Below are positions 14,313-30,138 of a stretch of 64,000 nt of DNA, one piece after another. The first letter of the stretch is position 1. Every line of letters starts with the position of its first letter. The position numbers were made by a program, and so were the translations under genes. The DNA comes from a bacterium (GTDB taxonomy: Bacteria > SZUA-79 > Acidulodesulfobacterales > Acidulodesulfobacteraceae), in NCBI GenBank assembly GCA_021845685.1, contig JAJZVN010000005.1, positions 1-64,000 on the forward strand. The letters run 5' to 3'. A model generated the notes under the pieces. It worked only from the letters and a program-made list of their open reading frames with translations, ran no database searches and was not told where the DNA came from.

Positions 14313-15356
14313 TTAATTTTGCAATTGATTTAATTTTTCTTTAAAATTAGTTTCTCCTAAAAATTTAAACTTTATTTGGCTGCTAAATCTTTCTTTCCCA
14401 ATATTATTCAAATATATTAGTGCATCTTTTTTTGATTTAAATACTCCGAACATAGCCGACCCGCTACCTGACAACATACCTAATTCGGCTTTCATATTTT
14501 TTTTTATCATAGAATTTTTAATTTTTTTAAGTACAGGGTATTTATTCAGTATTACATTTTCAAAATCATTTTCACATTTTAAATCTATACTTAAATTGAT
14601 GCAATTTTTTAAATCTATATTTTCAAAATCATTCTCATTCTTTATATTTAATTTATCAAAATTATAGTTAAAGTTCAAATTGAATATGTTATAGTAATTT
14701 ATTTTTTTTGTCAATACTAAATCATCAAATGCATCATAAGCTTCTTTGGTGGATACTCCAAATTTTGGCACAACTACAGTTATATAATATTTCTTTAACG
14801 ATCTTTTTGATATTGATTTTATTATTTCACCGTTTCCGGTAACAAAAGAATCTTTTTCCTTTAAATAAAAGCTCACATCGGAACCTAATTTTATTGCAAT
14901 ATTATTTAATTCATTATAATTTAACGGATTATTGTATATTTTATTTAAAATATTAAGCATTCCTGCCGCATCGCTTGATCCGCCGCCTAATCCTGCCTGC
15001 ATAGGAATATTTTTTTCAATAATAGCGTTTATATATTTATTTTTTAAATTAATTGTATTAAAAAATAAATTAGATGCTTTAATGATTAAATTTTTATCAG
15101 TTGACAGCTCTTTTTCAAGATTTTCTGTATATTCTTGTAATTCTTTTTTAGTCAATTGGCTGGCAACAGCTTCTCCCGGTATATTTTTTAATTTATTTCT
15201 ATCTTCATTTATTTCAAATGTTACTTTGTCAAAAATAGATATTCTTCTAATTATTGAAAAAATATTATGTAAATTATTGGCAGGATTTTTTTCGCCGATT
15301 TTTAAAATGAAATTTACTTTAGCAGGAGCTAAATAAGAATATCTTATATATTCCAC
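14313..15356 (-). CDS. ispE: 4-diphosphocytidyl-2-C-methyl-D-erythritol kinase
   Basis: The GHMP kinase of the MEP isoprenoid pathway. The start YLAPAKVNFILKIG and the ATP loop PMQAGLGGGSSDAAGML (about residues 117-133) are diagnostic; the C-terminal LGMLSGSGSAMFGVF is the third GHMP motif. It starts with GTG (15354-15356), 13 bases inside the 3' end of nuoN, so translation is probably coupled. At 347 residues it exceeds the usual 280-300. Most of the excess is an Asn/Asp/Lys-rich insertion before the third motif. That insertion contains a 21-residue in-frame duplication (ENDFEN twice). Confidence 0.95.
   Translation of the reverse strand: MEYIRYSYLAPAKVNFILKIGEKNPANNLHNIFSIIRRISIFDKVTFEINEDRNKLKNIPGEAVASQLTKKELQEYTENLEKELSTDKNLIIKASNLFFNTINLKNKYINAIIEKNIPMQAGLGGGSSDAAGMLNILNKIYNNPLNYNELNNIAIKLGSDVSFYLKEKDSFVTGNGEIIKSISKRSLKKYYITVVVPKFGVSTKEAYDAFDDLVLTKKINYYNIFNLNFNYNFDKLNIKNENDFENIDLKNCINLSIDLKCENDFENVILNKYPVLKKIKNSMIKKNMKAELGMLSGSGSAMFGVFKSKKDALIYLNNIGKERFSSQIKFKFLGETNFKEKLNQLQN
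14556..14640 (-). repeat. 63-base in-frame duplication inside ispE
   Basis: The 15 bases ATTTTCAAAATCATT occur at 14556-14570 and 14619-14633, with flanking similarity on both sides (TTAAATCTATA also occurs twice). The offset is 63 bases, or 21 codons, and produces the repeated peptide ENDFEN in IspE. The frame is kept, so the duplication is tolerated in a loop region. Confidence 0.8.
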
Positions 15357-16909
15357 AATGATGTTACCGATTTAGCTGCAAAATTGATAAACGGCTGCGG
15401 AAATACGCCGAGTATTAAAGTAAAAATTAAGCATAGAATTATTACTATAACTAAAGCAGAAGTTACGTGATTTTCTTTTATAATTTCCATTTGACCGTTA
15501 TTTACGGTTACATTTGAATCATTAATTACATCAGCGATAGAATTATTATTGGACTGATTATCTACCATATACATTTTAACAATTATTTTAATATAATAAT
15601 ATGCTGCAAATGCACTATTTAATATAGCTATAAAAACAAGCCAGTAATATCCAGATTTAATAGCAGCGGAAAATACAAAAAATTTTCCCATAAAACCGGA
15701 CGTTACGGGTATTCCCGCCAATGACAAAAGAAAAAAAGAAAATGCTGCTGCGGTGAGCGGGTATTTAAATCCAAAACCGTAATAGCTTTTTATATCAACT
15801 GAAGCTAATTTTAAATTTTCAAACATAATGACAATTCCAAAAGCGCCTGCAGTCATAAAAATATATGCCAGCAAATAAAATAAAGTTCCCGATATACCGT
15901 AATAGCCGCCTGCAATAATTCCTATTAATATATAACCTGCCTGTGCAATAGAAGAATAAGCAATAAGACGTTTTAAGTCAGTCTGCAATAATGCCGCAAA
16001 ATTACCGAATGTCATAGTCAACACGGCTAAAATCCATAAAATATTATAGAAATTTAATATATTAAAGCTATATATAGAAGTAAAAACTCTAATAAATATA
16101 CCAAAGGCTGCAACTTTTATTCCTGTTGCCATAAGATTTGTAACAGGCGTAGGCGCTCCGTCGTAGCTGTCAGGTGTCCACGTATGAAAAGGAAATAACG
16201 ACATTTTAAATGCCAGACCAACTAATAAAAGAACTAATCCTATTGCTAAAAAAGTATGCGAATTATAGATGTAATGCGCTTTGTAGCTTTGCTGAAATAT
16301 AAAATTATGTATTTTATATAAATTTAAATGCCCTGTCGCAGCATATATAAAAACAGACCCGAATAAGAAAAAAGCTGAAGCAAAAGTACCTAATATAAAA
16401 TATTTCATAGCGCCTTCGGTACTTCTTGATTCGCCCTTTAAATAACCTGTTAAAATATACGCGGCTATAGACATAAATTCAATTGACAGAAAAATCATAA
16501 TAAGATTAATTGATGACACTAAAAGCATCATTGCGGAAATAGAAAACAAAACAAGGCTATAATATTCGGGTATTAGAACATTACGCGTATCAAAATAATT
16601 TTTTGATAATAAAATAGTAAGAAAACCGGATAATAATATTACAGTAAAGAAAAATACATCAAATTTATCAAAAATAATTGAACCGTAAAAACCATGTATT
16701 GTATGATTAGATAATATAAAAAGATAAAGAAAAGAAAATACAATACCTATTAAAGCGATATAATAAGAATTTTCGCCGTTCTTTATACTCTTAAACAGTC
16801 CTAATAATAAAATAATAAAAGCAAAAATTATTAGTACCGCTTCAGGCATTACACTCAATAAACTTTTTTCTAAAAAATATTCGCTATACATTTGTGTTAA
16901 ATCAAGCAT
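15344..16909 (-). CDS. nuoN: NADH-quinone oxidoreductase subunit N
   Basis: An antiporter-like membrane subunit of complex I with about 14 hydrophobic segments. It has the signature KMSLFPFHTWTPDSYDGAPT with its Lys and the HTW, and DLKRLIAYSSIAQAGYILIG with the conserved Lys of the second half. Length 521 fits (about 480-520). It is the last nuo gene, overlapping nuoM by eight bases and ispE by 13. There is a soluble Asn-rich loop near residue 455-480 before the last helix. Confidence 0.97.
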   Translation of the reverse strand: MLDLTQMYSEYFLEKSLLSVMPEAVLIIFAFIILLLGLFKSIKNGENSYYIALIGIVFSFLYLFILSNHTIHGFYGSIIFDKFDVFFFTVILLSGFLTILLSKNYFDTRNVLIPEYYSLVLFSISAMMLLVSSINLIMIFLSIEFMSIAAYILTGYLKGESRSTEGAMKYFILGTFASAFFLFGSVFIYAATGHLNLYKIHNFIFQQSYKAHYIYNSHTFLAIGLVLLLVGLAFKMSLFPFHTWTPDSYDGAPTPVTNLMATGIKVAAFGIFIRVFTSIYSFNILNFYNILWILAVLTMTFGNFAALLQTDLKRLIAYSSIAQAGYILIGIIAGGYYGISGTLFYLLAYIFMTAGAFGIVIMFENLKLASVDIKSYYGFGFKYPLTAAAFSFFLLSLAGIPVTSGFMGKFFVFSAAIKSGYYWLVFIAILNSAFAAYYYIKIIVKMYMVDNQSNNNSIADVINDSNVTVNNGQMEIIKENHVTSALVIVIILCLIFTLILGVFPQPFINFAAKSVTSLWNI

Positions 16910-18443
16910 TGAATAACCCCATTTTTGCTTTAATTAGATTGTAAGCATATTTATTATGTTCTATTATATTCACAAAATGTACAACTGTTGGATTTATTCT
17001 GCTCAGAAGTACATCCGGATATAATCCTATAAAAAACATTAATAAAATTAACGGTAAAACGGTAATTATCTCTCTTAAAGTCATATCTTTAAAATTTTCA
17101 TTATTTTTATTTGTAATATCCTGGAACATAACCCTTTGGAACATCCATAATAAATAAACTGCCGTAAAAATAATACCGCTCGTTGCAAATATAGTAAATA
17201 CAGTGTATTGTTTAAATGACCCTACTAAAATTAAAAATTCTCCGACAAATCCGTTTAATCCAGGCAAACCAACTGATGATAAAACCGCTATCATAAATAA
17301 AGCAGCAAGAATTGGAGCTTTTTTAGTCAAACCCCCAAAATCTGCAATTAGTCTTGTATGACTTCTTTCGTAAAGCATTCCTACAAAAAGAAAAAGCGCT
17401 CCTGTAGATATGCCGTGATTTATCATTTGAAGAACAGAACCGTCAACGCTGACTGCCGTCATCGCAAACAATCCAAGCACTATAAAACCCATGTGCGATA
17501 CGCTTGAAAAAGCGACCAATCTTTTTAAATCTTTTTGGACTATTGAAACTAATGCGCCGTAAATTATACTGATTACTGCAAGGACAAGTATAACGGGCGT
17601 AAGTATAATAGACGCTTCTGGCATCAACGGGATTGCAAATCTGAAAAAACCGTAAATACCAAATTTAAGAAGTACGCTGGCAAGAATAACGCTTCCTGCC
17701 GTAGGTGCTTCGGTGTGGGCATCAGGTAGCCATGTGTGAAATGGAAAAAGAGGTATCTTTACGGCAAATCCTAAAAATATCGCTATAAATAAAATTATCT
17801 GCAACGTTAAAGGGATATTTGTATGATAAAGCTTTAATAAATTGAATGTGAAATTGCCTGTCTGGTTATAATGCAATATAAATATTGTAATTAGACCGAA
17901 AAGCATTATAAGCGAACCTGCCAGAGTATATAAAATAAATTTAACCGCTGAATAAACCTTCCTGCCCGTACCCCATATTCCTATAATATAATACATAGGT
18001 ATAAGCATAAACTCCCAGAACAAATAAAATAAAAGAATATCTAGAGAAGCAAAAGCACCAAGCATGAATGTTTCAAGCACAAGCATTAAAATCACAAATT
18101 CTTTTACATGTTCTTTAATATATTTATAGCTTGATAATAATGCTATAAATGTCATTAAAGTCGTAAGCAATATCAAAAATAAACTTACTCCGTCTATGCC
18201 GAGAAAATACGTTGCCCCGAATTCGCGAATCCAGCTGAATCTTTCTACAAATTGAAATTGATATGTATTTGACTTAAAATATATAAATAAAAATAAAGAA
18301 ATTACGAATTCTGCCAGGGATAAAATAGTGGCAAGGTTTCTCAATAAACCTTCCGCTTTTTTATTTATAAAAACCAGCAGAAGAGCTGATAATAGCGGAA
18401 AAAAAATTATTATAGATAAAATATACTTTAAAAAAATACTCAT
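16902..18443 (-). CDS. nuoM: NADH-quinone oxidoreductase subunit M
   Basis: An antiporter-like proton-pumping subunit of complex I, 513 residues and about 14 helices. The essential Glu is in FYLFWEFMLIPMYYIIG (about residues 138-155), and the Lys in AVKIPLFPFHTWLPDAHTEA. The second conserved segment is QKDLKRLVAFSSVSHMGFI. It sits between nuoL and nuoN in the usual order. Confidence 0.98.
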   Translation of the reverse strand: MSIFLKYILSIIIFFPLLSALLLVFINKKAEGLLRNLATILSLAEFVISLFLFIYFKSNTYQFQFVERFSWIREFGATYFLGIDGVSLFLILLTTLMTFIALLSSYKYIKEHVKEFVILMLVLETFMLGAFASLDILLFYLFWEFMLIPMYYIIGIWGTGRKVYSAVKFILYTLAGSLIMLFGLITIFILHYNQTGNFTFNLLKLYHTNIPLTLQIILFIAIFLGFAVKIPLFPFHTWLPDAHTEAPTAGSVILASVLLKFGIYGFFRFAIPLMPEASIILTPVILVLAVISIIYGALVSIVQKDLKRLVAFSSVSHMGFIVLGLFAMTAVSVDGSVLQMINHGISTGALFLFVGMLYERSHTRLIADFGGLTKKAPILAALFMIAVLSSVGLPGLNGFVGEFLILVGSFKQYTVFTIFATSGIIFTAVYLLWMFQRVMFQDITNKNNENFKDMTLREIITVLPLILLMFFIGLYPDVLLSRINPTVVHFVNIIEHNKYAYNLIKAKMGLFNA

Positions 18444-18581: not shown

Positions 18582-20465
18582 TTATCTTACAAAATAATAA
18601 GCTAAAAGAGCTATAACTCCGACGGTTAATGTAACAATATAGCTCATAAGCATTCCGTTTTGCAATTTCCTTACTTTTGACGATGTAATGCTTACATATT
18701 GCGCTATGCCGTTAACTGCACCGTCTATAACCAAAATATCCACTATTCTCCATAAAAAAATAGCAAAATTTTTCATAGGGTTCACTATTACAAAATCATA
18801 TATTTCATCAACGTATAATTTGTTATATGAAAGATCATATATAGGTTTAAATTTACTTTTAAGTTTTTCAAGATCGAATGATTTTTTTATATAAAAAACA
18901 TAGGCGATATATATTCCGCCTAAACCGGCAATTACAGAAATTGCGCTCAGCAAATACCACGGATAATTATTTACGGCTGGAGCAAAATTGAACGAGTTTG
19001 CAAAATCTTTATTTATAAATTTATAAAATATAGAATGATTAAATGGCGGAAGACCGATAAAACCGAATATACCTGCTAAACAAGCAAGTATTATTAAAGG
19101 TATAGTCATAATTTTTGGCGATTCATGGACATGTAAATTTTTATCAACATGAGATTCTCCGAAAAAAACATTAAAAATAAGCCTGAATATATAAAATGCG
19201 GTCATAAAAGCCACAAGCACGCCGATAATCCAGAATAAATAATCTCCTTTATTAAATAAATCAGCCAGTATTGCATCTTTGCTGAAAAATCCTGAAAAAG
19301 GAGGGATACCCGATAATGCCAACCCGCCTACAATAAATGTTATAGCTGTTATTTTCATTTTTGAATATAAGCCGCCCATTTTTCTCAGGTCTAACTCCCC
19401 GCTCATTCCATGCATTACGCTGCCTGCAGTTAAAAACAAAAGTCCTTTAAATATAGCATGCGATAATAAATGAAACATTCCCGCAGCATAAGATCCTATA
19501 CCCACTGCCATAAACATATAGCCTATCTGACTGATAGTGGAATAAGCAATTATTCTTTTGATATCAAATTGAGTTAAAGCACTAAAGGCGCCAATGAAAG
19601 CAGTAACACCTCCGATTATTAATACAACATTAGAAGCATCTGGGGAATAAGAAAATATAATGTGGCATCTTGCTATAAGATATACTCCTGCAGTTACCAT
19701 TGTTGCTGCATGTATAAGCGCGCTGACAGGAGTTGGTCCTTCCATAGCGTCGGGCAGCCAGACATAAAGCGGGAATTGCGCAGACTTACCTACTGCTCCG
19801 GCAAGAAGCAATAAAGCAATAGTTGTAATTAAATAAGGAGGCAATGTATGAATATCGGAAAAAACAGTTGAATAATTTAATGTGCCGATAGTTATAAATA
19901 TCAGCATAACTCCCAATGCAAATCCAAAATCGCCTATTCTATTTACAATGAAAGCTTTTTTACCTGCATCTACCGCAGATTTTTTTTCATACCAGAAACC
20001 TATGAGAACGTATGAACATAATCCGACTGCTTCCCAAAATACATACAATAACAAAAAGTTATTTGCCATAATCAGCATGATCATTGAAAAAACAAATAAG
20101 TTCAGATAAGAAAAATATCTTGCAAAACCTTTATCATCTTTCATATAGCCTATTGAATAAATATGAACTAAGGCGCTTATACCCGTGACCATAACTAACA
20201 TCACTACGGACAATCTGTCAATTGTAGTTGACACATTTACCTTAAAATAGGAAGCATCAATCCATTGATATAGAATAGAAGTAAAGCCATGCCCATAAGC
20301 AACAATAAAAAATATTATGACGGAAAGTATAAATGAAATTATTATAAATATACTTCCCAAATATCCGGAGTAATTTTTGAAATACTTTCCGAATACCCCC
20401 CATAAAATTGCGCCTAACAGCGGGAAAAAAGGGATAAGCCAAACTATTAAATCTTTTGAATTCAT
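18582..20465 (-). CDS. nuoL: NADH-quinone oxidoreductase subunit L
   Basis: The distal antiporter-like subunit of complex I, 627 residues. It has YVFWEAVGLCSYVLIGFWYE with the key Glu, KSAQFPLYVWLPDAMEGPTP with the Lys, and HAATMVTAGVYLIARC and DIKRIIAYSTISQIGYMF. The C-terminal part includes the amphipathic lateral-helix region and a final membrane helix, as expected of full-length NuoL. It is separated from nuoM by 138 bases with no clear feature. Confidence 0.98.
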   Translation of the reverse strand: MNSKDLIVWLIPFFPLLGAILWGVFGKYFKNYSGYLGSIFIIISFILSVIIFFIVAYGHGFTSILYQWIDASYFKVNVSTTIDRLSVVMLVMVTGISALVHIYSIGYMKDDKGFARYFSYLNLFVFSMIMLIMANNFLLLYVFWEAVGLCSYVLIGFWYEKKSAVDAGKKAFIVNRIGDFGFALGVMLIFITIGTLNYSTVFSDIHTLPPYLITTIALLLLAGAVGKSAQFPLYVWLPDAMEGPTPVSALIHAATMVTAGVYLIARCHIIFSYSPDASNVVLIIGGVTAFIGAFSALTQFDIKRIIAYSTISQIGYMFMAVGIGSYAAGMFHLLSHAIFKGLLFLTAGSVMHGMSGELDLRKMGGLYSKMKITAITFIVGGLALSGIPPFSGFFSKDAILADLFNKGDYLFWIIGVLVAFMTAFYIFRLIFNVFFGESHVDKNLHVHESPKIMTIPLIILACLAGIFGFIGLPPFNHSIFYKFINKDFANSFNFAPAVNNYPWYLLSAISVIAGLGGIYIAYVFYIKKSFDLEKLKSKFKPIYDLSYNKLYVDEIYDFVIVNPMKNFAIFLWRIVDILVIDGAVNGIAQYVSITSSKVRKLQNGMLMSYIVTLTVGVIALLAYYFVR

Positions 20466-20674: not shown

Positions 20675-20974
20675 TTAAAATTTTAATTCATTTGCATCAT
20701 CTATATTTATTGTTCCTTTTTCTCTATAAAAAGCGATAGCGATTCCTAACAAAATTGCTGCTTCGGCAGCGGCAACAACCATAATGAATATAACAAAAAT
20801 ATCTCCGCTAATTAAATTTAAATATTCGGAAACAGCAACAAAACCTAAATTTGCGGCATTAAACATTAATTCTAAACTTAAAAAAATAGTTATAAGATTT
20901 TTTCTTATCAAAACACCTAACGCGCCAATACAAAATATAATTGTTGCCACAATTAAATAATCATTTACATTCAT
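20675..20974 (-). CDS. nuoK: NADH-quinone oxidoreductase subunit K
   Basis: A 99-residue membrane subunit with three helices. It carries the proton-channel Glu residues in LEL (SLELMFNAANL) and the later VVAAAEAAILLGIAIAFYRE. Normal length (about 100). It lies between nuoJ and nuoL; 209 AT-rich bases follow it before nuoL, with no feature seen. Confidence 0.97.
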   Translation of the reverse strand: MNVNDYLIVATIIFCIGALGVLIRKNLITIFLSLELMFNAANLGFVAVSEYLNLISGDIFVIFIMVVAAAEAAILLGIAIAFYREKGTINIDDANELKF

Positions 20975-21064: not shown

Positions 21065-21562
21065 TTATTTTTTAGCAAAAATATAAGCGCCTATAACTGC
21101 TACCAGCAACAAAATAGAAGCTACTTCAAACGGAAAAACATACTTAGTAAATAAGAATTCTCCTATAATTTGGGTATTGCCTATTTTATTGATTACTGTA
21201 TTTGTATAAATGCCCGTGGGCTTTTTTTCGCCCGCCGCGTTAAGATATAATATAACTTCTAAAGTGAATAGTCCGATAGCTATAATACTTATAGCTATTT
21301 GATGAAAATCTTTAATTGCTCCTTTGATTTTAGCTAAGTTAAGCAGCATAATAACTAAAACTATAATAACAGCGATTGCGCCTGCATAGACCATAATTTG
21401 CATCGCAGCCAAAAATTGCATATTAAGAAGTATATAGAACCCTGCCAATGCAAAAAAACACAAAATTATGTATAACGCAGAGGTTAATGGACTCTTAACC
21501 AATATTACCATCAACGCAGAAACAATTGCAATTATTGAAAAAATATAAAAAAGCGCTTCCAA
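21065..21562 (-). CDS. nuoJ: NADH-quinone oxidoreductase subunit J
   Basis: A 165-residue, five-helix subunit of the complex I membrane arm. It has PLTSALYIILCFFALAGFYI, then the pi-bulge helix region MQIMVYAGAIAVIIVLVIML, which is central to coupling. The last helix VASILLLVAVIGAYIFAKK matches the family C-terminus. Located between nuoI and nuoK. Confidence 0.96.
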   Translation of the reverse strand: MEALFYIFSIIAIVSALMVILVKSPLTSALYIILCFFALAGFYILLNMQFLAAMQIMVYAGAIAVIIVLVIMLLNLAKIKGAIKDFHQIAISIIAIGLFTLEVILYLNAAGEKKPTGIYTNTVINKIGNTQIIGEFLFTKYVFPFEVASILLLVAVIGAYIFAKK

Positions 21563-21617: not shown

Positions 21618-22130
21618 TTAAAGTTTTATAAGTTTGTCTATTCCAAAGATTCCTTCATCTCTAGTATAAAATCCAAATTCAAATTTATCCGACATACTGA
21701 TGGCCTCTTCCGGACAAATTTCTTCACAATATCCGCAGCATATGCATCTCAGCAAATCTATTTCAAATGATTCAGGGTGCCTTCTTCCGTCATTGTAAAT
21801 ATTATTTTCAAGTTTTTCAAGACTTTTATTTTGTTTTTGCCTCTCGGTAAGCTCATGTTTGTTTCCATAATCTACATATCCGAGTTTAATTTTGATAGCT
21901 TCCGAAGGACAAACCGTCTGACATAGCATACAGGCTACGCATCTTAAGGAATTATCTTTATTAATATTAAGTTTTGGGACACCCCTAAACCGTTCAGCTA
22001 ATTTAAGTCTTTCCCTCGGATACTGAAATGTTACAGGTTTTTGAAAAAATGTAGTTAAAGTGGTTTTTAAACCTATAAGTAAGTTTTTTGTTATCAGTAT
22101 TAATGAATTTTCTTCTTTTTTAGTATCCAT
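21618..22130 (-). CDS. nuoI: NADH-quinone oxidoreductase subunit I
   Basis: The peripheral subunit with two [4Fe-4S] clusters (N6a and N6b) passing electrons towards NuoB. The cluster motifs are CVACMLCQTVCP (about residues 63-74) and CICCGYCEEICPE (about 129-141), each ending in Pro. The N-terminus has the expected GLKTTLTTFFQKPVTFQYP membrane-surface segment. At 170 residues it is typical. Between nuoH and nuoJ. Confidence 0.97.
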   Translation of the reverse strand: MDTKKEENSLILITKNLLIGLKTTLTTFFQKPVTFQYPRERLKLAERFRGVPKLNINKDNSLRCVACMLCQTVCPSEAIKIKLGYVDYGNKHELTERQKQNKSLEKLENNIYNDGRRHPESFEIDLLRCICCGYCEEICPEEAISMSDKFEFGFYTRDEGIFGIDKLIKL

Positions 22131-22237: not shown

Positions 22238-23224
22238 TTATTTTCCCAATAAAATCATTATAAACCCTGTTACTACAATATTAGCCAATGATAAAGGAAG
22301 TAAAATTTTCCAGCCAAGATCCATAAGCTCGTCATATCTCAGTCGAGGGTAAGTCCATCTAAACCAGAGATAAATAAGTATTACTAAAAAAACTTTTATC
22401 ACAAACCATAGAACCGACGGAAGAAAAGGTCCTTCCCATCCTCCCAAAAAAAGTGTAGTAATAATTGCTGAATTAATAACTATTTGACCATATTCCCCAA
22501 TAAAATAAAATGCAAATTTCATACTTGAATATTCTGTATGGAAACCCGCAACTATTTCTCCTTCCGCCTCGCCAAGATCAAAAGGAACCCTGTTCATTTC
22601 AGCAGTTGAAGCGATTAAATAAATTAAAAATCCGATTGGCTGATAAACAATAAACCACATATGCGACTGCGAAGAAACTATTTGCGCCAGACTTAAATTT
22701 CCCGCTATCATAATCACGCCGATTATAGAAAGAACAAGCGAAAGTTCATAGCTTATCATTTGAGCGGCAGTTCTTATAGCTCCCAATAATGAATACTTAC
22801 TGTTTGATGCCCATCCTCCGATTACAACACCGTATATTCCCAACGAAGAAAGCGCTAAAATAAATAATATTCCTATATTAACATTTGTAATTTGAAGCGG
22901 GACAATGTGCCCAAATATTTTTATCGGAGCGCCAAACGGAATAACCGCAAATGTTGTTAAAACAGGGATAACAACAATAATAGGTGCAAGAATAAATAAT
23001 ATTTTATTTGCATCCGCAGGTATAATATCTTCTTTAAAAAACAGCTTTATTCCATCTGCTATAGGTTGAAGATATCCGTGAAAACCCGCCTCCATAGGTC
23101 CTAACCTATTTTGTATGCGGGCTGCTACCTTACGCTCTAAAAGTGTCAGATAAGCTGCGGATAAAAGCAGAACGCCAAATACTATAAGTATTTTTATTAA
23201 TGTTGTAATCAGCCAAAAAATCAT
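22238..23224 (-). CDS. nuoH: NADH-quinone oxidoreductase subunit H
   Basis: The quinone-site membrane subunit of complex I, 328 residues and about eight helices. It carries ERKVAARIQNRLGPMEAGFH (the ERK...GPN-like loop), PIADGIKLFFKEDIIP, the acidic loop AEMNRVPFDLGEAEGEIVAG and the YSSMKFAFYFIGEYGQI segment. Late RWTYPRLRYDELMDLGWK forms the quinone chamber rim. Between nuoG and nuoI. Confidence 0.98.
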   Translation of the reverse strand: MIFWLITTLIKILIVFGVLLLSAAYLTLLERKVAARIQNRLGPMEAGFHGYLQPIADGIKLFFKEDIIPADANKILFILAPIIVVIPVLTTFAVIPFGAPIKIFGHIVPLQITNVNIGILFILALSSLGIYGVVIGGWASNSKYSLLGAIRTAAQMISYELSLVLSIIGVIMIAGNLSLAQIVSSQSHMWFIVYQPIGFLIYLIASTAEMNRVPFDLGEAEGEIVAGFHTEYSSMKFAFYFIGEYGQIVINSAIITTLFLGGWEGPFLPSVLWFVIKVFLVILIYLWFRWTYPRLRYDELMDLGWKILLPLSLANIVVTGFIMILLGK

Positions 23225-23264: not shown

Positions 23265-25388
23265 TTAATAATATACTTTCGTTTTATCGTTATAATAAAA
23301 CTTGCTTCTCGTCTTTATCTTATTATGATAAGTTACATTTTTTGATTTAATCAATTCAATAAATTTATCAAGTTCGTCTTTAATATTGAATTGAGCGCCA
23401 AACTTAGATGCGAGATCGGATAAAATAGTTGAAATACTATTCCTGTATCCTTCAATGTGAAATTCATTATTTACATGAGTAATCTTTCCTTCAAAATTTT
23501 CATAAAAACTATCCTTTTCTTCAAGAAAATCAAAAATAGGAAAAACAATATCTGCGAAAGGCAATAATTTATTTGTTTTAGATGAAAAAACAACAAGCAT
23601 TTCCAAATCTGAGACATATTTTGTCAATTTTATAATTCTATCTTTTTCTTCGTAATCGCCAAAATAAATTAAATTTTTAATATCTCCTTTTTCTATTGCC
23701 TTAATGATACCTTCAAACGGCAGCATATTTTTTTCAGGCATAACTCCTGCAAAATTAAGCCCTCTATAATTAAAATGTTTTATCAGCGGATAAACATATA
23801 CAATTTTCTGTTCATCTCTAAGAAATTCAACAATCTCTTTAATAATTAGAAGGTCTTTATTCATATTAAATGAAGATGAAAGACAATCGCCAAGAATAAC
23901 CGATATTGTATTAGAGTTAAGAATAGAATCAATAACAATATCTTTTTTTTCAAAATTATGATTATACATATTATGCCTGAATTCATCTAAATAAGAACGC
24001 AGTTCTTCAATTTTTAAATCAAACTTAAATGAGGCTATATCTTCAAATCTTGAAAATGCATTTACTTTATCTATATGTCTTAAAATATTTATCAAAATTA
24101 ATTTGCCGCCGTGTTCTCTGCGGTTTTTCATTATATTATAAGCAACATAAGGTATAGTGTTTTCAATAGATCCTATATAAAAAATAACTTCGGAATTTTG
24201 AATAGTTTTAATATCAAAATCTTCTTCAGATTTAAATATTTCTTTAAAATATAAAAAATTATTTAAATATAGCGAGGGCTGGTCAATATCAAACCCAAGC
24301 GGATTTAACAACTCTTTAGCAAATTTAGAAATTACAAATCCATCAGTCATAGAAACTGAAGGAGATACAAGAATTGCGGTTTTATCAGTTATCCTGCCGT
24401 TTAGGGTATTAATATTTTTAAGCCTCGAGTTAAATTGTTCTAAAGCCTCGCCGTAAGTGCATTCTTCAGCTTTTGATTTCTTTTTTATCATTGGAAATTT
24501 AATATAATAATCACTGTTCTCATTTTTACCAATTGATTCATAAAAAAAACCGTCTTTACAAAGATAGCCGCCATTTAAAGCGGCAGTTCTAACTAAAGTT
24601 TCTGCTGCTGCGTATCTATAAAACTCTATTCTGCAAGCAGCGGAACACTTATCGCAAATAGAGGAAAACGGCGACACTTGCCAGTATCTTTCTTTAAACT
24701 TAGACGGTTTTGAAATTAGTGCACCGACAGGACAAACTTCTACGCAATTTCCGCAATAATAACAATCTAAATAATCAACATCTTGCTGAATTTCCATAAA
24801 CGAACAGTTCTCTGACGGAATTGACCCGGTTTCTATCTTATCGTCACCTTTTAAGCCTATATAAGCATTAAATCCTTTATCTTTGATTTGATAAAACGGG
24901 TTACCGTACATATCGGTACATACTCTTATGCATCTTGAACATAACACGCACCTTGTTGCAGTATATTCTATGAGGTCGCTTTTAAATATATGCGTTCTAT
25001 CGGGAAATACCTTTTTATCTTGTTGAGTCGTAAGTCCAAATTCGAATGAAAGATCCTGTAAAATGCATTCGCCTGATTTATCGCAAACAGGACAATCAAG
25101 AGGATGGTCTAGCAAAAGATGCGATAATACTTCTTTTCTTATATCCCATACTTTTTCTGTATCGGTTAAGATTTCATAGCCTTCTTTTACTTTTGCAACA
25201 CAAGACGGAAGAGGATTTTTAACCCCTTTAACCTCAACCACGCAGATTCTGCAAGAACCAATCGGTTTAAGACGTCTTAAATAACATAAAACAGGAATTT
25301 TTATGCCTACTCTAGACGCAGCCTCAAGAATAGTAATGCCTGATTCAGTTATAATTTTTTTGCCGTTTATTGTAATTTCAATATCCAC
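23265..25388 (-). CDS. nuoG: NADH-quinone oxidoreductase subunit G (iron-sulfur subunit)
   Basis: A 707-residue protein. The N-terminal [2Fe-2S] motif is CYLRRLKPIGSCRICVVEV plus a later Cys in LPSCVAKV. The His-Cys cluster is HLLLDHPLDCPVCDKSGEC. Two [4Fe-4S] motifs follow, CVLCSRCIRVC and CYYCGNCVEVCPVGAL. The molybdopterin-oxidoreductase-like part starts near residue 245 with CDKCSAACRIEF. The C-terminal half is more diverged. In normal complex I it takes electrons from NuoF/E; here its neighbour is the NuoF-GltD fusion. Confidence 0.96.
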   Translation of the reverse strand: MDIEITINGKKIITESGITILEAASRVGIKIPVLCYLRRLKPIGSCRICVVEVKGVKNPLPSCVAKVKEGYEILTDTEKVWDIRKEVLSHLLLDHPLDCPVCDKSGECILQDLSFEFGLTTQQDKKVFPDRTHIFKSDLIEYTATRCVLCSRCIRVCTDMYGNPFYQIKDKGFNAYIGLKGDDKIETGSIPSENCSFMEIQQDVDYLDCYYCGNCVEVCPVGALISKPSKFKERYWQVSPFSSICDKCSAACRIEFYRYAAAETLVRTAALNGGYLCKDGFFYESIGKNENSDYYIKFPMIKKKSKAEECTYGEALEQFNSRLKNINTLNGRITDKTAILVSPSVSMTDGFVISKFAKELLNPLGFDIDQPSLYLNNFLYFKEIFKSEEDFDIKTIQNSEVIFYIGSIENTIPYVAYNIMKNRREHGGKLILINILRHIDKVNAFSRFEDIASFKFDLKIEELRSYLDEFRHNMYNHNFEKKDIVIDSILNSNTISVILGDCLSSSFNMNKDLLIIKEIVEFLRDEQKIVYVYPLIKHFNYRGLNFAGVMPEKNMLPFEGIIKAIEKGDIKNLIYFGDYEEKDRIIKLTKYVSDLEMLVVFSSKTNKLLPFADIVFPIFDFLEEKDSFYENFEGKITHVNNEFHIEGYRNSISTILSDLASKFGAQFNIKDELDKFIELIKSKNVTYHNKIKTRSKFYYNDKTKVYY

Positions 25389-25521: not shown

Positions 25522-27426
25522 TTATTCAAACTTTACAAGCATAAGAAAATAACACCTCATACATCTTGTAGATTCATAAATAACGTCATCGCTTGTTAAA
25601 CCCTTATCAATCTCCGTAAAATTATTTATAAGCTTTTCAACAGGTTCTTCCACTTGTTTTGCAGCAAGATTCCCTTTTGGGAAATCAGTATAATCTATAA
25701 CCTCTTTTTTGTCATAAACACCGATATCTTCAAAAAAATATTCAAAAAGGCAATCGTCTGTTGCTTCAAACAAACCTGTTCTTATATATTGGTCTATTCT
25801 TCTTGCGGCATTTTTACCATCACGATTTGAATCAACTATACTAATAGGACCGGTAAATGCGTCGCCTCCGACAAAAACTCCTGGCATATCGGTCATATGC
25901 GTAAATTTGTCTGCTATTATTGTTTTACCTTTATTTGTTTTAATCTGCGGCGTATCTTTCAAAAAATCAAAATCGGGAACCTGCCCTACTGCCATAATAA
26001 ATGAATCGCACTCAATATCAAAATCACTACCTTCTATCTCGACAGGACTTCTTCTACCGCTTGCATCAGGGTCTCCAAGCTTCATTTTTATACATCTTAC
26101 CCCTTTAACGACTCCATTTTCTTGAATAATGCTTACAGGATTGGTCAGGAATTCAAATTTAACGCCTTCTTTAATGGCAGGATCAATCTCATAGTCAGCC
26201 GCCGGCATCTGCTCTCGAGATCTTCTATATACAACTATAACTTCCTTAAACCCTAGTCTGATTGCAGTTCTGCAGCAATCTATAGCAACATTGCCGCCGC
26301 CTTCTATTATCACTTTATTGCCGATATCTATTTTATTTCCAAGTGTAACATCGCGTAAAAACTTAACCCCTTCATAAAAACCTTTAAGATTGTCGTTTTC
26401 TCCCGGTAAACCTATATTTTGCCCTTTATGAGCGCCGACTGCAACGAATACGGCTTTAAAATTTTGCTCAAAAAGATCCTGTATCTTAAAATCCGTTCCA
26501 AGCCTTTGATTTAATTTATAATCAATTCCTGTTGAAAGAATATAATTAATTTCTTTATCTAAGAATTCTTGGGGCAGCCTGAACTTTGGGATGCCGACGT
26601 TCATCATGCCGCCCAAAACAGGTAATGCTTCAAATATAACAGGCTTATAACCCATTAGACGCAAATAATACGCACAGCTTAAACCGGCCGGACCTGAACC
26701 TACAATTGCTACCTGAATTCCATTATCTTTGATTGTAAACTTTGGCTTAATATTAGAATAAAATTCATTATCGGCGGCAAATCTTCTAATTAAACATATC
26801 TGAATAGGCTCATCTACATTTGCTCTTCGGCAATTATCCTGACATGGATGAAAACAGCTTCTACCTAAAATACCGGCTAACGGGGTGCTTCTTCTGGCGG
26901 ATTCAAGGGCATCTTCAAATCTGCCGTCTCTGACTCTTTCAATCCAGTTTGGAATGTCAAGTTTAGACGGGCATCCATTAATACAAGGAGCAGTTATATG
27001 AGTTATATAATTTCCTTTTGGTATAATTTCTTTATTTGTTATAGCTTTTTCAAAATCTTCTCTAAAATTATCAATTAGCTCGGTAACAGCCAGTGGTCCC
27101 ATATTCCCGACAGTACACTTAGAAGATGATAAAATCCAATCGCATTGATTTCTTAATCTATTCAAATCTTCTAAAATAGCGCGCCCATTACATATATGTT
27201 CAAGAATATCGGAGGCAACCGAAGTGCCGATCATGCATGGAGTGCAAACACCGCAGGAAATCTTTTGAAGCTCCTGCATATAACATCTTGCAAGATCAAC
27301 TTTATTATCCTTATCATCAAGTAAAACTATGCCCTTCCAGCTAAGTATAGAGGATATTTCAGTATGACCCGATCTTTTAAAGTATGAAAGATCTAATTTT
27401 GGACTAATTTTATTAATTAATTTCAT
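25522..27426 (-). CDS. NuoF N3-cluster domain fused to GltD-like NAD(P)H:FAD oxidoreductase
   Basis: In the nuoE/nuoF position is a 634-residue hybrid. Residues 1-130 match only the C-terminal N3-cluster domain of NuoF: SCGVCTPCMIG with Cys58, Cys61, Cys64, and Cys104 40 residues later. The FMN/NADH Rossmann and SLBB parts are absent. From about 145 it is a glutamate-synthase-small-subunit-like domain: APCINGCPSKLDIPNW and CFHPCQDNC (iron-sulfur Cys), VAIVGSGPAGLSCAYYL (FAD), EGGGNVAIDCCRTA and YRRSREQMPA (NAD(P)H), and GVFVGGDAFTGP near the end. It could feed complex I from NADPH or NADH through FAD; ferredoxin is a further option. Partners are inferred only from the operon. Confidence 0.9.
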   Translation of the reverse strand: MKLINKISPKLDLSYFKRSGHTEISSILSWKGIVLLDDKDNKVDLARCYMQELQKISCGVCTPCMIGTSVASDILEHICNGRAILEDLNRLRNQCDWILSSSKCTVGNMGPLAVTELIDNFREDFEKAITNKEIIPKGNYITHITAPCINGCPSKLDIPNWIERVRDGRFEDALESARRSTPLAGILGRSCFHPCQDNCRRANVDEPIQICLIRRFAADNEFYSNIKPKFTIKDNGIQVAIVGSGPAGLSCAYYLRLMGYKPVIFEALPVLGGMMNVGIPKFRLPQEFLDKEINYILSTGIDYKLNQRLGTDFKIQDLFEQNFKAVFVAVGAHKGQNIGLPGENDNLKGFYEGVKFLRDVTLGNKIDIGNKVIIEGGGNVAIDCCRTAIRLGFKEVIVVYRRSREQMPAADYEIDPAIKEGVKFEFLTNPVSIIQENGVVKGVRCIKMKLGDPDASGRRSPVEIEGSDFDIECDSFIMAVGQVPDFDFLKDTPQIKTNKGKTIIADKFTHMTDMPGVFVGGDAFTGPISIVDSNRDGKNAARRIDQYIRTGLFEATDDCLFEYFFEDIGVYDKKEVIDYTDFPKGNLAAKQVEEPVEKLINNFTEIDKGLTSDDVIYESTRCMRCYFLMLVKFE

Positions 27427-27473: not shown

Positions 27474-28688
27474 TTACCTATCGCTTTCTCCTAATAAAAA
27501 ATCAATACTCCCTATAATGGAAACAAGATCTGCGAGCAAATACCCTTTGCACATTTTGCATATTGCGCTGATACTGCAAAAAGACGGAGGTCTGACACGC
27601 ATTCTGTATGGAAAAGCCGAACCGTCAGAAACTATATAGTACCCTAGCTCTCCGCGAGGATTTTCAATAGAAACATAAGCTTCTCCTTTGGGAGGCTTTA
27701 TTCCGTCCATGCCGTATTTAAACAGTGAAATCATTCCTTCCATTGTAGTTAGAGCTCTTTTTTTAGGAGGTATAACATACTGCGGATACTCATCGTAACT
27801 TAAATACTCTCCTTCAGGAATATTTTCAACCGCTTGAGATACAATCTTAAGACTTTGCCTCATTTCTTCAATTCTAACTAAATAACGGTCGTAAACATCT
27901 CCGATATCCCCTACTGGAATATCAAAATCAAAATCTTCATAGCTTGAATAAGGATTATTTTTCCTGACATCATATTTTAATCCGCTGCCTCTTAAATTAG
28001 GGCCTGTAAAAGCAAAACTTACAGCATCTTCAGCTGAAATTATTCCTATATTTTTAGTCCTTTCAAACCATATTTTATTTTTTGTAAGCAATGCCTCATA
28101 TTCGTCAATTTTTTCAGGGAATATTTTAATGAAATCGCGTATTTTATCTATAAAATAATGGTGAATATCCATTGCAATACCGCCTACTCTGAAAAAAGAA
28201 GGAGTCATCCTTGAGCCTGTCATTGTTTCAATAATATCAAGTATAAGTTCTCTTTCGCGAAAGCAATATAAAAATTCCGTTAACGCACCTATATCAACGG
28301 CATGTGTTCCGAGCCAAACTAAATGAGAACTTATTCTTGTTAATTCAGCAAGAATAACCCTCACATACTCGGCTTTTTTAGGCGGTTTTACTCCGCATAG
28401 TTTTTCAACCGTAAGTATATATCCAAGATTATTGCCCGCTCCTGAAACATAGTCCATTCTGTCCGTAATAGTCTCAGCTTGATGATACGTTCTAAATTCA
28501 GCAAATTTTTCCATACCTGTATGCAGATAGCCGATTATCGGCTCGGCGCTTATTACTGTTTCGCCGTCTAATTTTACAAAGATCCTTAGGACCCCGTGAG
28601 TGCTAGGATGCTGAGGACCGATATTAATGGCAAAATCGCCGACATCAATTAGAAAATCTTTATATTCAAGCATAGATTTAGTATCCAA
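27474..28688 (-). CDS. nuoD: NADH-quinone oxidoreductase subunit D
   Basis: The 49-kDa-type subunit forming the quinone pocket with NuoB and NuoH. It has INIGPQHPSTHGVLRIFVKL (with the key His), GYLHTGMEKFAE, RMDYVSGAGNNLGY and the closing VSIIGSIDFLLGESDR, where the family ends in ..DP.DR. GENPRGELGYYIVSDG-like IENPRGELGYYIVSDG and RPPSFCSISA are present. 404 residues is typical. Separate from nuoC. Confidence 0.98.
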   Translation of the reverse strand: MDTKSMLEYKDFLIDVGDFAINIGPQHPSTHGVLRIFVKLDGETVISAEPIIGYLHTGMEKFAEFRTYHQAETITDRMDYVSGAGNNLGYILTVEKLCGVKPPKKAEYVRVILAELTRISSHLVWLGTHAVDIGALTEFLYCFRERELILDIIETMTGSRMTPSFFRVGGIAMDIHHYFIDKIRDFIKIFPEKIDEYEALLTKNKIWFERTKNIGIISAEDAVSFAFTGPNLRGSGLKYDVRKNNPYSSYEDFDFDIPVGDIGDVYDRYLVRIEEMRQSLKIVSQAVENIPEGEYLSYDEYPQYVIPPKKRALTTMEGMISLFKYGMDGIKPPKGEAYVSIENPRGELGYYIVSDGSAFPYRMRVRPPSFCSISAICKMCKGYLLADLVSIIGSIDFLLGESDR

Positions 28689-28734: not shown

Positions 28735-29256
28735 CTAAATATCAACTAATCCTGGCGTGTCATAATTTAAACTTTCAACAGAGGGCCTCTTTCTGAGCGG
28801 ATAATCTTTAAGAAGAGGATGTCCTTCCCAATCATCAGGATTTAATATACGTTTAAGATCCTGATGACCCTTAAATTTAAGACCGAACATATCATAAATT
28901 TCTCTTTCAAACCAATTTGCAGAGTCATAAACAGATGTCAAACTTGGGTATTCTGTTTCATCTATTTTACTATGACATTTAACAAACAATCTAAAATTAT
29001 TTTTTGTAGAATAAAAATTATATATAATCTCAATCCTTTCTGAACTTTTTGGATAATCAACTCCAAAAAGATCACTGAGCATATCAAAATTGAGTCTTAA
29101 ATCTTCCTTCATAAATTTGACTAATTCAATCAAATTTTCTTTTGCCGTTGTTATACGCACCTCATCATTAGAAGTATCAGTTGAAATAATATTCTTCTGC
29201 ATCACATCTTTAATTACGCTTAGCGCAAAAAACGGGTCCATATTTTTGCTTTTCAT
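28735..29256 (-). CDS. nuoC: NADH-quinone oxidoreductase subunit C
   Basis: The 30-kDa-type peripheral subunit, 173 residues. It contains LFGVDYPKSSERIEIIYNF and the family signature WFEREIYDMFGLKFKGH, followed by RILNPDDWEGHPLLKDYPL. Located between nuoB and nuoD. The N-terminus is less conserved, and the start is set by the ATG at 29256. Confidence 0.97.
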   Translation of the reverse strand: MKSKNMDPFFALSVIKDVMQKNIISTDTSNDEVRITTAKENLIELVKFMKEDLRLNFDMLSDLFGVDYPKSSERIEIIYNFYSTKNNFRLFVKCHSKIDETEYPSLTSVYDSANWFEREIYDMFGLKFKGHQDLKRILNPDDWEGHPLLKDYPLRKRPSVESLNYDTPGLVDI

Positions 29257-29317: not shown

Positions 29318-29788
29318 CTATATCCTTAATGTTCCTTTTTCAATTTTCTCCTGTAATTTCACAATGCCGTAAATAAGAGCTTCGGGACGTGGAGGACATC
29401 CAGGTACATAAACATCTACAGGTATAATTTTATCTACACCTTGAACAACGCTATAAACATTAAATAATCCGCCTGAACATGCACAATCGCCCATAGCGAT
29501 TACCCATTTTGGATTAGGCATTTGATCATAAAGCCTTTTTACTACAGGCGCCATTTTATATGAAACTCTGCCTGATACAATCATTAAATCGGATTGTCTC
29601 GGCGTTGAACGAAATATTAGTCCTAAACGGTCAATGTCATAACGGGATGAAGCAGAGGTCATCATTTCAATGGCACAGCAAGCTAAGCCGAAAGTAGCTG
29701 GCCATATTGACCATTTTCTTCCCCAAGAAACCAATTTATCTAAAGCAGTCGTAAGAACATTGTCTCCTAACTGATCTTCTAATCCCAC
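29318..29788 (-). CDS. nuoB: NADH-quinone oxidoreductase subunit B
   Basis: Carries cluster N2, the final electron donor to quinone. The motif [11 protein letters not shown] gives the tandem Cys, with further ligands in [13 protein letters not shown] and [12 protein letters not shown]. 156 residues is typical. The GTG or ATG start overlaps the end of nuoA by ten bases, so translation is coupled. Confidence 0.98.
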
Positions 29789-30138
29789 TTAAGCGCTCCT
29801 TTTTTCCATATATAAATAAGCCCGAAAACTAAAATGGCTATAAATAAAAACATTTCAACAAAGCCGTATAAACCTAAACTTGAAAATACAACTGCCCAGG
29901 GAAATAAAAATAACGCTTCTATATCAAACAGCAAGAAGAATATTGCGATTAAATAAAATTTTATGTCAAATCTTACATGCGGTTCACCCACAGGTTCTAT
30001 GCCGCATTCATAAGCCTTTAGCTTTCCTTTTTCAAAAGTTTTCTTACCTAAAAGAGAAGAAAAAACTACCGTAAAGACTGCAAAAAGTATTGCTATTACA
30101 AGCATTATCAGAATAGGCAAAAACGAGTTCTGTTCCAT
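29779..30138 (-). CDS. nuoA: NADH-quinone oxidoreductase subunit A
   Basis: A 119-residue, three-helix membrane subunit. It has [20 protein letters not shown] with the conserved Cys-Gly-x-Glu loop, [18 protein letters not shown] with the Asp/Glu pair, and [20 protein letters not shown], the family C-terminus. It is the first gene of the nuo operon; a promoter is seen about 90 bases upstream. Confidence 0.98.

Follow-up and report, generated by a model that had tools for sequence, protein, structure and literature searches.

An N3-GltD fusion gene of the SfrB type at the nuoE/nuoF place of a bacterial complex I locus, and a probable route for NADPH electrons

Introduction

Complex I is the textbook NADH machinery of respiration, and in its known form the N3 domain is the part of NuoF that hands electrons over to NuoG. 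What delivers the electrons, then, when a nuo locus encodes a NuoG but neither NuoE nor NuoF? This question is raised by a locus found in a stretch of 64,000 nucleotides (from here on, the window) from a bacterium of the family Acidulodesulfobacteraceae, and its answer bears on what serves as the physiological donor for nuo loci without nuoEF. A preliminary description, made from the DNA alone, had read the gene at the E/F place as a hybrid, in which an N3 domain is joined to a GltD-like flavoprotein, without the FMN/NADH and SLBB domains of NuoF.

Alternative input modules and reduced forms of this machinery have already been described, namely the Nuo-Bfu complexes (PMC9304861), the 11-subunit complexes (PMC11238625), the Stn enzymes (PMC10482914) and the Sfr-like proteins (PMC3543383). 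In the SfrAB system, SfrB is GltD-like and SfrA is NuoG-like, and together they act as an NADPH:Fe3+ oxidoreductase (PMC7483475). Our searches of the open-access literature brought up no account of a complex I in which an SfrB-type subunit takes the place of NuoEF.

In this work we analysed the domain make-up, the conserved ligands, the genomic context and the distribution of the hybrid gene. Based on these, we consider it quite probable that a complex I of 13 genes is encoded here, in which NuoE and NuoF are replaced by one SfrB-type NADPH dehydrogenase protein, feeding N3, NuoG and, ultimately, quinone.

Results and Discussion

The nuo locus

The locus is a run of genes on one strand (minus), in the order nuoA, nuoB, nuoC, nuoD, fusion, nuoG, nuoH, nuoI, nuoJ, nuoK, nuoL, nuoM and nuoN. 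All the genes for the membrane arm and the Q-module (nuoA-D and nuoH-N) are present: nuoA (29779..30138), nuoB (29318..29788), nuoC (28735..29256, assigned by gene order and sequence) and nuoD (27474..28688, TIGR01962, E 1e-156) on one side of the fusion and, on the other side of nuoG, nuoH (22238..23224), nuoI (21618..22130), nuoJ (21065..21562), nuoK (20675..20974), nuoL (18582..20465), nuoM (16902..18443) and nuoN (15344..16909). Neither nuoE nor nuoF is found in the locus, which likewise encodes no BfuB (the NuoF-type FMN subunit) and no BfuC (the NuoE-type subunit). Between nuoD and nuoG, in this otherwise complete nuoA-N locus, lies the N3-GltD (SfrB-type) fusion gene (25522..27426, minus strand, read from 27426 to 25522), which starts with ATG and runs for 634 residues; the possibility of a stop or frameshift between its two parts, raised by the preliminary description, was checked and the frame is uninterrupted.

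The NuoG encoded next to it (23265..25388, minus strand, 707 residues) keeps its cluster ligands: those of N1b (C35, C46, C49 and C63), of N5 (H95, C99, C102 and C108), of a two-cluster ferredoxin-like stretch which includes N4 (C147, C150, C153 and C157; C209, C212, C215 and C219) and of N7 (C245, C248, C252 and C277), all of them 100% conserved in the 25 sequences compared (25/25). Its best match in the PDB is the NuoG of Aquifex. The two CxxCxxCxxxC motifs of this protein are both complete, as in HydA and FdhA, and it may thus bind an additional [4Fe-4S] cluster compared with the NuoG of E. coli.

This locus shares with the canonical 14-subunit complex I the membrane arm, NuoB, NuoC, NuoD, NuoI, NuoG and the N3 domain of NuoF; it differs in the absence of NuoE and of the FMN/NADH and SLBB domains of NuoF, in place of which there is an input of the FAD/GltD type. 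The 11-subunit complex I of Desulfitobacterium is similarly encoded by an operon without NuoE and NuoF, but it lacks NuoG and a dedicated input protein, whereas here both NuoG and an input flavoprotein (the N3-bearing subunit) are encoded. The Nuo-Bfu complexes, proposed for Geobacter, Deferribacteres and others, are also forms of complex I whose nuo operon encodes another kind of input module (PMC9304861), but they have the FMN protein BfuB together with BfuC, and membership of this class was rejected, given that the locus holds neither.

Domain make-up and cluster ligands of the fusion

Three Pfam domains were identified in the fusion protein. The first is the NuoF-type N3 [4Fe-4S] domain (PF10589, E 3.9e-18; residues 44-127, 27046..27297, minus strand), which is the only part of NuoF that was kept and which retains all four ligands, Cys58, Cys61, Cys64 and Cys104; these had been pointed out in the preliminary description and are invariant across the phylum in our alignment. 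In the PDB this domain aligns to C-terminal domains, namely those of HydB, of beta subunits of formate dehydrogenase and of NuoF. It is followed by the GltD-type cluster domain (PF14691, Fer4_20, E 1e-19; residues 145-222, 26761..26994, minus strand), with Cys148, Cys152, Cys191, Cys195 and Cys199 located by the alignments, and by the double dinucleotide fold for FAD and NAD(P)H (PF07992, E 1e-29; residues 238-528, 25843..26715, minus strand), which is matched by NfnA and StnC. Neither PF01512 (the FMN domain) nor SLBB was found by Pfam in the protein, and the hybrid nature that had been proposed for the gene is thus borne out by both the reading frame and the domain search. The solved chains closest to the GltD part are the NfnA of 9n5u (2e-115), 9bov_A (4e-114) and StnC (8oh5_C, 1e-98). 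An AlphaFold prediction of the whole chain, computed from 23 mostly near-identical rows, was poor (mean pLDDT of 55), with confidence in the N3 region only.

The C-terminal tail carries an RC-x2-C motif (Cys622 and Cys625; 25552..25650, minus strand), which is kept in every homologue aligned. This tail (residues 593-625) matches weakly, over 33 residues of 4ylf_B and 5jca_L, the ExxRCLQC motif that stands at the N-terminus of GltD and NfnL. As read from the sequence, two cluster ligands are moved in the fusion from the N-terminal end, where canonical GltD and NfnL have them, to the C-terminal end. Seven conserved cysteines (C148, C152, C191, C195, C199, C622 and C625) are therefore available for two [4Fe-4S] clusters, as would be expected with an eighth ligand other than cysteine. 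Near the eighth-ligand position the fusion has Arg214 (in all 17 of the 17 phylum sequences aligned) and an extra cysteine, Cys211, one helical turn away and also invariant in the phylum, and either of the two may be the eighth ligand. In all the other N3-GltD proteins of the alignment this position is a lysine. NfnB has a glutamate there, and in StnC the position is taken by Lys170 (or C114); the K170R variant of StnC retained about half of the dye activity (PMC10482914).

The nature of this position also bears on a confurcating mode of action, which the preliminary description had offered as an option: the FAD would split or join electrons among NADPH, ferredoxin and quinone, in the manner of NfnB or Nuo-Bfu. 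The fold is indeed shared with NfnB, with Arg283 of the fusion aligning with the flavin-neighbouring Arg201/Arg239, and Nuo-Bfu complexes have been proposed in other bacteria (PMC9304861). Nevertheless, the FMN subunit of the BfuB/NuoF type and NuoE, which form the confurcating pair of the Bfu and Stn enzymes, are absent, the operon shows no second acceptor partner and no NfnA-like partner, and StnC, which has a lysine at the position discussed above, is reported to have lost bifurcation in its GltD domain (PMC10482914). Bifurcation of the NfnB type was rejected, since the glutamate ligand of the FAD-proximal cluster is replaced by Arg214. Confurcation by the complex that bears the fusion is thus unlikely, and we give the whole bifurcating or confurcating reading very little credence.

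Distribution in the phylum and search for a separate NuoE/NuoF

The nearest named record of the fusion (99% identity over residues 1-235) comes from Candidatus Acididesulfobacter diazotrophicus, a MAG from acid mine drainage, which the tree places in the phylum Ca. Acidulodesulfobacteriota. A genome paper on these bacteria recorded nuoE, nuoF and nuoG as missing; in contrast, we found nuoG and a single gene at the E/F place. Of the 30 genomes of the phylum, 28 carry the fusion, always with nuoD immediately upstream and nuoG downstream; the other two are incomplete (86% and 59%). In the 24 loci from the named collection, the nuo gene order is unbroken across the nuo genes that each holds, with a spacing of -4 to 144 bp between nuoD and the fusion and of 5 to 154 bp between the fusion and nuoG.

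The window's own genome is fragmented (96% complete, in 199 contigs), and one might suspect that the gene is an artefact of assembly or annotation, or else a pseudogene in decay. Yet the gene is intact in the 28 genomes, which span six genera and include a 5-contig assembly, with 66-99% identity over residues 1-235 and with all the key cysteines invariant. Such conservation of the gene and of its place means that the fusion is not an assembly accident; a frameshifted or pseudogene origin was rejected on the intact frame and its conservation across the phylum, and the chance that we are dealing with an artefact of any kind is negligible.

A separate nuoE-nuoF pair elsewhere in the genome was the other check called for by the preliminary description, which had taken the fusion to replace both subunits. 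In the window's own genome, the sole matches to PF01512 and PF01257 fall in one gene on another contig (C18), a fusion of a truncated NuoE with a NuoF, placed directly upstream of a 1070-residue subunit of the formate dehydrogenase type, with which we pair it. Across the phylum, a PF01512 gene occurs in 18 of the 30 genomes and, in the neighbourhoods that were fetched, it lies beside an FdhA-like gene, with the exception of two cases at contig ends. No PF01512 was found in seven of the 19 good genomes of the phylum, all seven being more than 90% complete (G010, G016, G017, G022, G027, G028 and G029). A nuoEF pair elsewhere was rejected on these grounds, the survey of the own genome and of the phylum indicating that this complex has no NuoF encoded outside the locus, and the proposed replacement stands.

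The NuoE-NuoF fusion on contig C18 (L002:7296-9572, FdhB-like) has features of its own. Its NuoE part ends before the [2Fe-2S] domain, and it contains long Asn-rich inserts of low complexity, which are also present in an MFS transporter nearby (L002:4098-5492). These inserts reach 65% Asn over 40 residues, and a check of 51 ORFs of the window revealed nothing of the kind (0/51).

Nucleotide specificity

The second nucleotide-binding loop of the fusion (residues 374-404; 26215..26307, minus strand) reads GGGNVA...YRRSR and is a predicted NADP(H) site, according to the alignments and to the rule by which the GxGxxA pattern is taken as NADP(H)-binding (PMC7483475). In StnC, which was solved with NADPH (PMC10482914), the aligned loop reads GGGNTA...YRRT. 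Given that GGGNVA fits the pattern and that StnC has a similar loop, NADPH is the likely electron donor of the fusion; the entry of electrons from NADPH through FAD, suggested in the preliminary description, gains from this fit, from the retention of YRRSR and from NfnA and StnC being the closest solved chains.

Nucleotide specificity deduced from motifs can mislead, and motifs in the second fold are no proof of it. Accordingly, we weighed a GltD-type module that is NADH-specific or accepts both nucleotides, the complex being then an NADH dehydrogenase with another flavoprotein. No PntB-type transhydrogenase was found above the cut-off in the phylum, so NADH would need another sink, a point that can be counted in favour of this reading. 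The loop, however, matches the sequences of NfnL and of the NADPH-binding StnC and NfnA, besides following the GxGxxA pattern, and we regard the use of NADH as unlikely.

Relatives in other phyla

The preliminary description had also proposed to look for the fusion in other nuo operons. An earlier scan of the genome contigs used patterns that were too specific, matching the phylum and one Bacillota protein; the wider search was made with an HMM of residues 1-235 of the fusion in 386 genomes, and retrieved two further classes: (a) N3-GltD proteins of about 650-690 residues and (b) proteins of about 1030 residues in which a complete NuoF is joined to GltD. Fourteen members of class (a) were fetched, of which seven lie in nuo operons (L088, L089, L090, L092, L097, L100 and L101), five beside a lone NuoG/FdhA-like gene and two beside a short gene similar to NuoG or hydrogenase. 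Besides its phylum-wide presence here, the same architecture takes the place of E and F in nuo operons of no fewer than three further GTDB phyla. In the phylum of genome G362 it is present in 16 of 24 genomes, with the order FUS-G-A-B-C-D-H-I-J-K-L-M-N (FUS being the fusion) in 13 of the 16 carriers and the remaining three on short or truncated contigs; PF01512 is absent from two carriers of this phylum (92% and 97% complete). The orders are A-B-C-D-FUS-G-H-I-J-K-L-M in the phylum of G263 (2/2 genomes) and FUS-G-J-K-L-M-N in the phylum of G337 (3/3 genomes).

The six members of class (b) that were fetched (L102-L107) all have FdhA/NuoG-like or FeFe-hydrogenase partners, and three have NuoE-like genes beside them. 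They share the N3-GltD joint with the window fusion but, unlike it, they retain the FMN and SLBB domains, and they possibly form a bifurcating class that uses NADPH plus NADH. One of them (L107, G272:C1:205000-224500) belongs to a nuo operon with NuoF, NuoG, NuoE, the NuoF-GltD fusion (1036 residues) and an FdhA-like gene between nuoD and nuoH. Other arrangements were also seen. In a Bacillota MAG (L085:8893-12470) the gene for an N3-GltD protein immediately precedes that of a group A [FeFe] hydrogenase, and this couple is likely an NADPH-linked hydrogenase, similar to the SfrB-HndD pair reported from Pelobacter carbinolicus. At L090 (G346) two tandem NuoG-like genes follow the N3-GltD gene in the nuo operon. 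In the wider family the third cysteine of N3 is not universal, several members having Gly in place of C64.

In a tree of the shared part, the root of which is not fixed, the proteins of the phylum form one clade (100/100) and the long class forms one group (94/97), while the short forms located in nuo operons are scattered, requiring four context changes even if the count is restricted to the well supported branches. From this scatter, the N3-GltD module has probably moved several times between nuo and Sfr-like contexts.

The occurrence of the same architecture beside lone NuoG-like genes outside nuo operons, where it probably makes a soluble enzyme, implies that position alone is no proof of complex membership. 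The fusion and NuoG could form, or also form, a soluble NADPH oxidoreductase like SfrAB, leaving a membrane complex in the 11-subunit style without a fixed input module. Pairs of the SfrA/SfrB kind are found outside nuo operons (L091, L095, L096, L098 and L099), and there are known complexes of 11 subunits that lack the N-module (PMC11238625). On the other side, the D-fusion-G-H order within a complete nuo cluster holds for the whole phylum and recurs independently in others, and NuoG retains N7 and a sequence of the complex I type, closest in the PDB to that of Aquifex. A soluble enzyme of this kind seems to us quite unlikely, and we retain the reading in which the fusion is the input subunit of complex I.

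Proposed working of the complex

From sequence and synteny we infer that the fusion assembles into the complex and uses NADPH over NADH, and we propose the electron path and direction that follow. NADPH would reduce the FAD of the GltD domain, and single electrons would then pass from FAD to the two GltD-type [4Fe-4S] clusters and on to the N3 cluster kept from NuoF. The next carriers would be N1b/N4/N5 of NuoG and the usual chain to quinone, with proton pumping driven via the normal membrane arm. The first half of this path has a precedent in StnC, where the transfer is reported to be linear, from NADPH through FAD and two GltD clusters to the NuoG domain (PMC10482914), and SfrAB provides a further one, with GltD-like and NuoG-like subunits acting on NADPH (PMC7483475, PMC3543383).

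The likeness to these systems is nevertheless partial. In Stn/Nfn-Bfu (StnABC, and NfnABC of Thermococcus), which provide the closest solved structures, a GltD domain also feeds a chain of the NuoG type, but there the GltD forms an insertion within the NuoG subunit and is accompanied by a bifurcating NuoE/NuoF pair, whereas here the GltD is fused after N3 and no such pair remains. SfrAB of Geobacter shares the combination of a GltD-type flavoprotein with a NuoG-like subunit, with no need for NuoE or NuoF, but it is a soluble two-subunit enzyme and not a module within a complete nuoA-N locus. The proposed link with SfrB draws on its published description (PMC7483475, PMC3543383) and on the domain make-up; this probable kinship, as well as the strand, the RCxxC tail and the distribution, extends the preliminary description, of which the replacement of NuoE/NuoF and the NADPH input through FAD are kept and confurcation is given up.

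The standard potentials of NADP (about -320 mV, -380 mV in vivo) and menaquinone (-74 mV; Table 1 of PMC9304861) give a driving force that is enough to pump, and a large proton gradient could reverse the reaction, in which case the gradient would be spent on moving electrons from quinol to NADP+. Reverse flow to NADPH is an attractive possibility in view of the missing PntB and of the rTCA cycle reported for CO2 fixation in these bacteria. More tentatively, and with clear doubt on our part, this may be a complex I coupled to NADP(H) in both directions, which would act in place of the missing proton-pumping transhydrogenase: its forward mode would respire NADPH, its reverse mode would feed NADPH directly to the rTCA cycle, and the SfrB-type module would have been swapped onto NuoG repeatedly.

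Implications

If the proposed replacement is true, bacteria that were recorded as lacking nuoE, nuoF and nuoG would possess a full complex I, fed through an input of the NADPH type, and reconstructions that label such loci as 'incomplete' or 'NADH-dependent' would be wrong. For four phyla or more, this would also change how the two nicotinamide pools are connected with respiration. Additionally, our results suggest that the N3 domain is an exchangeable docking piece on NuoG, which would be useful for understanding the evolution of complex I and for its engineering.
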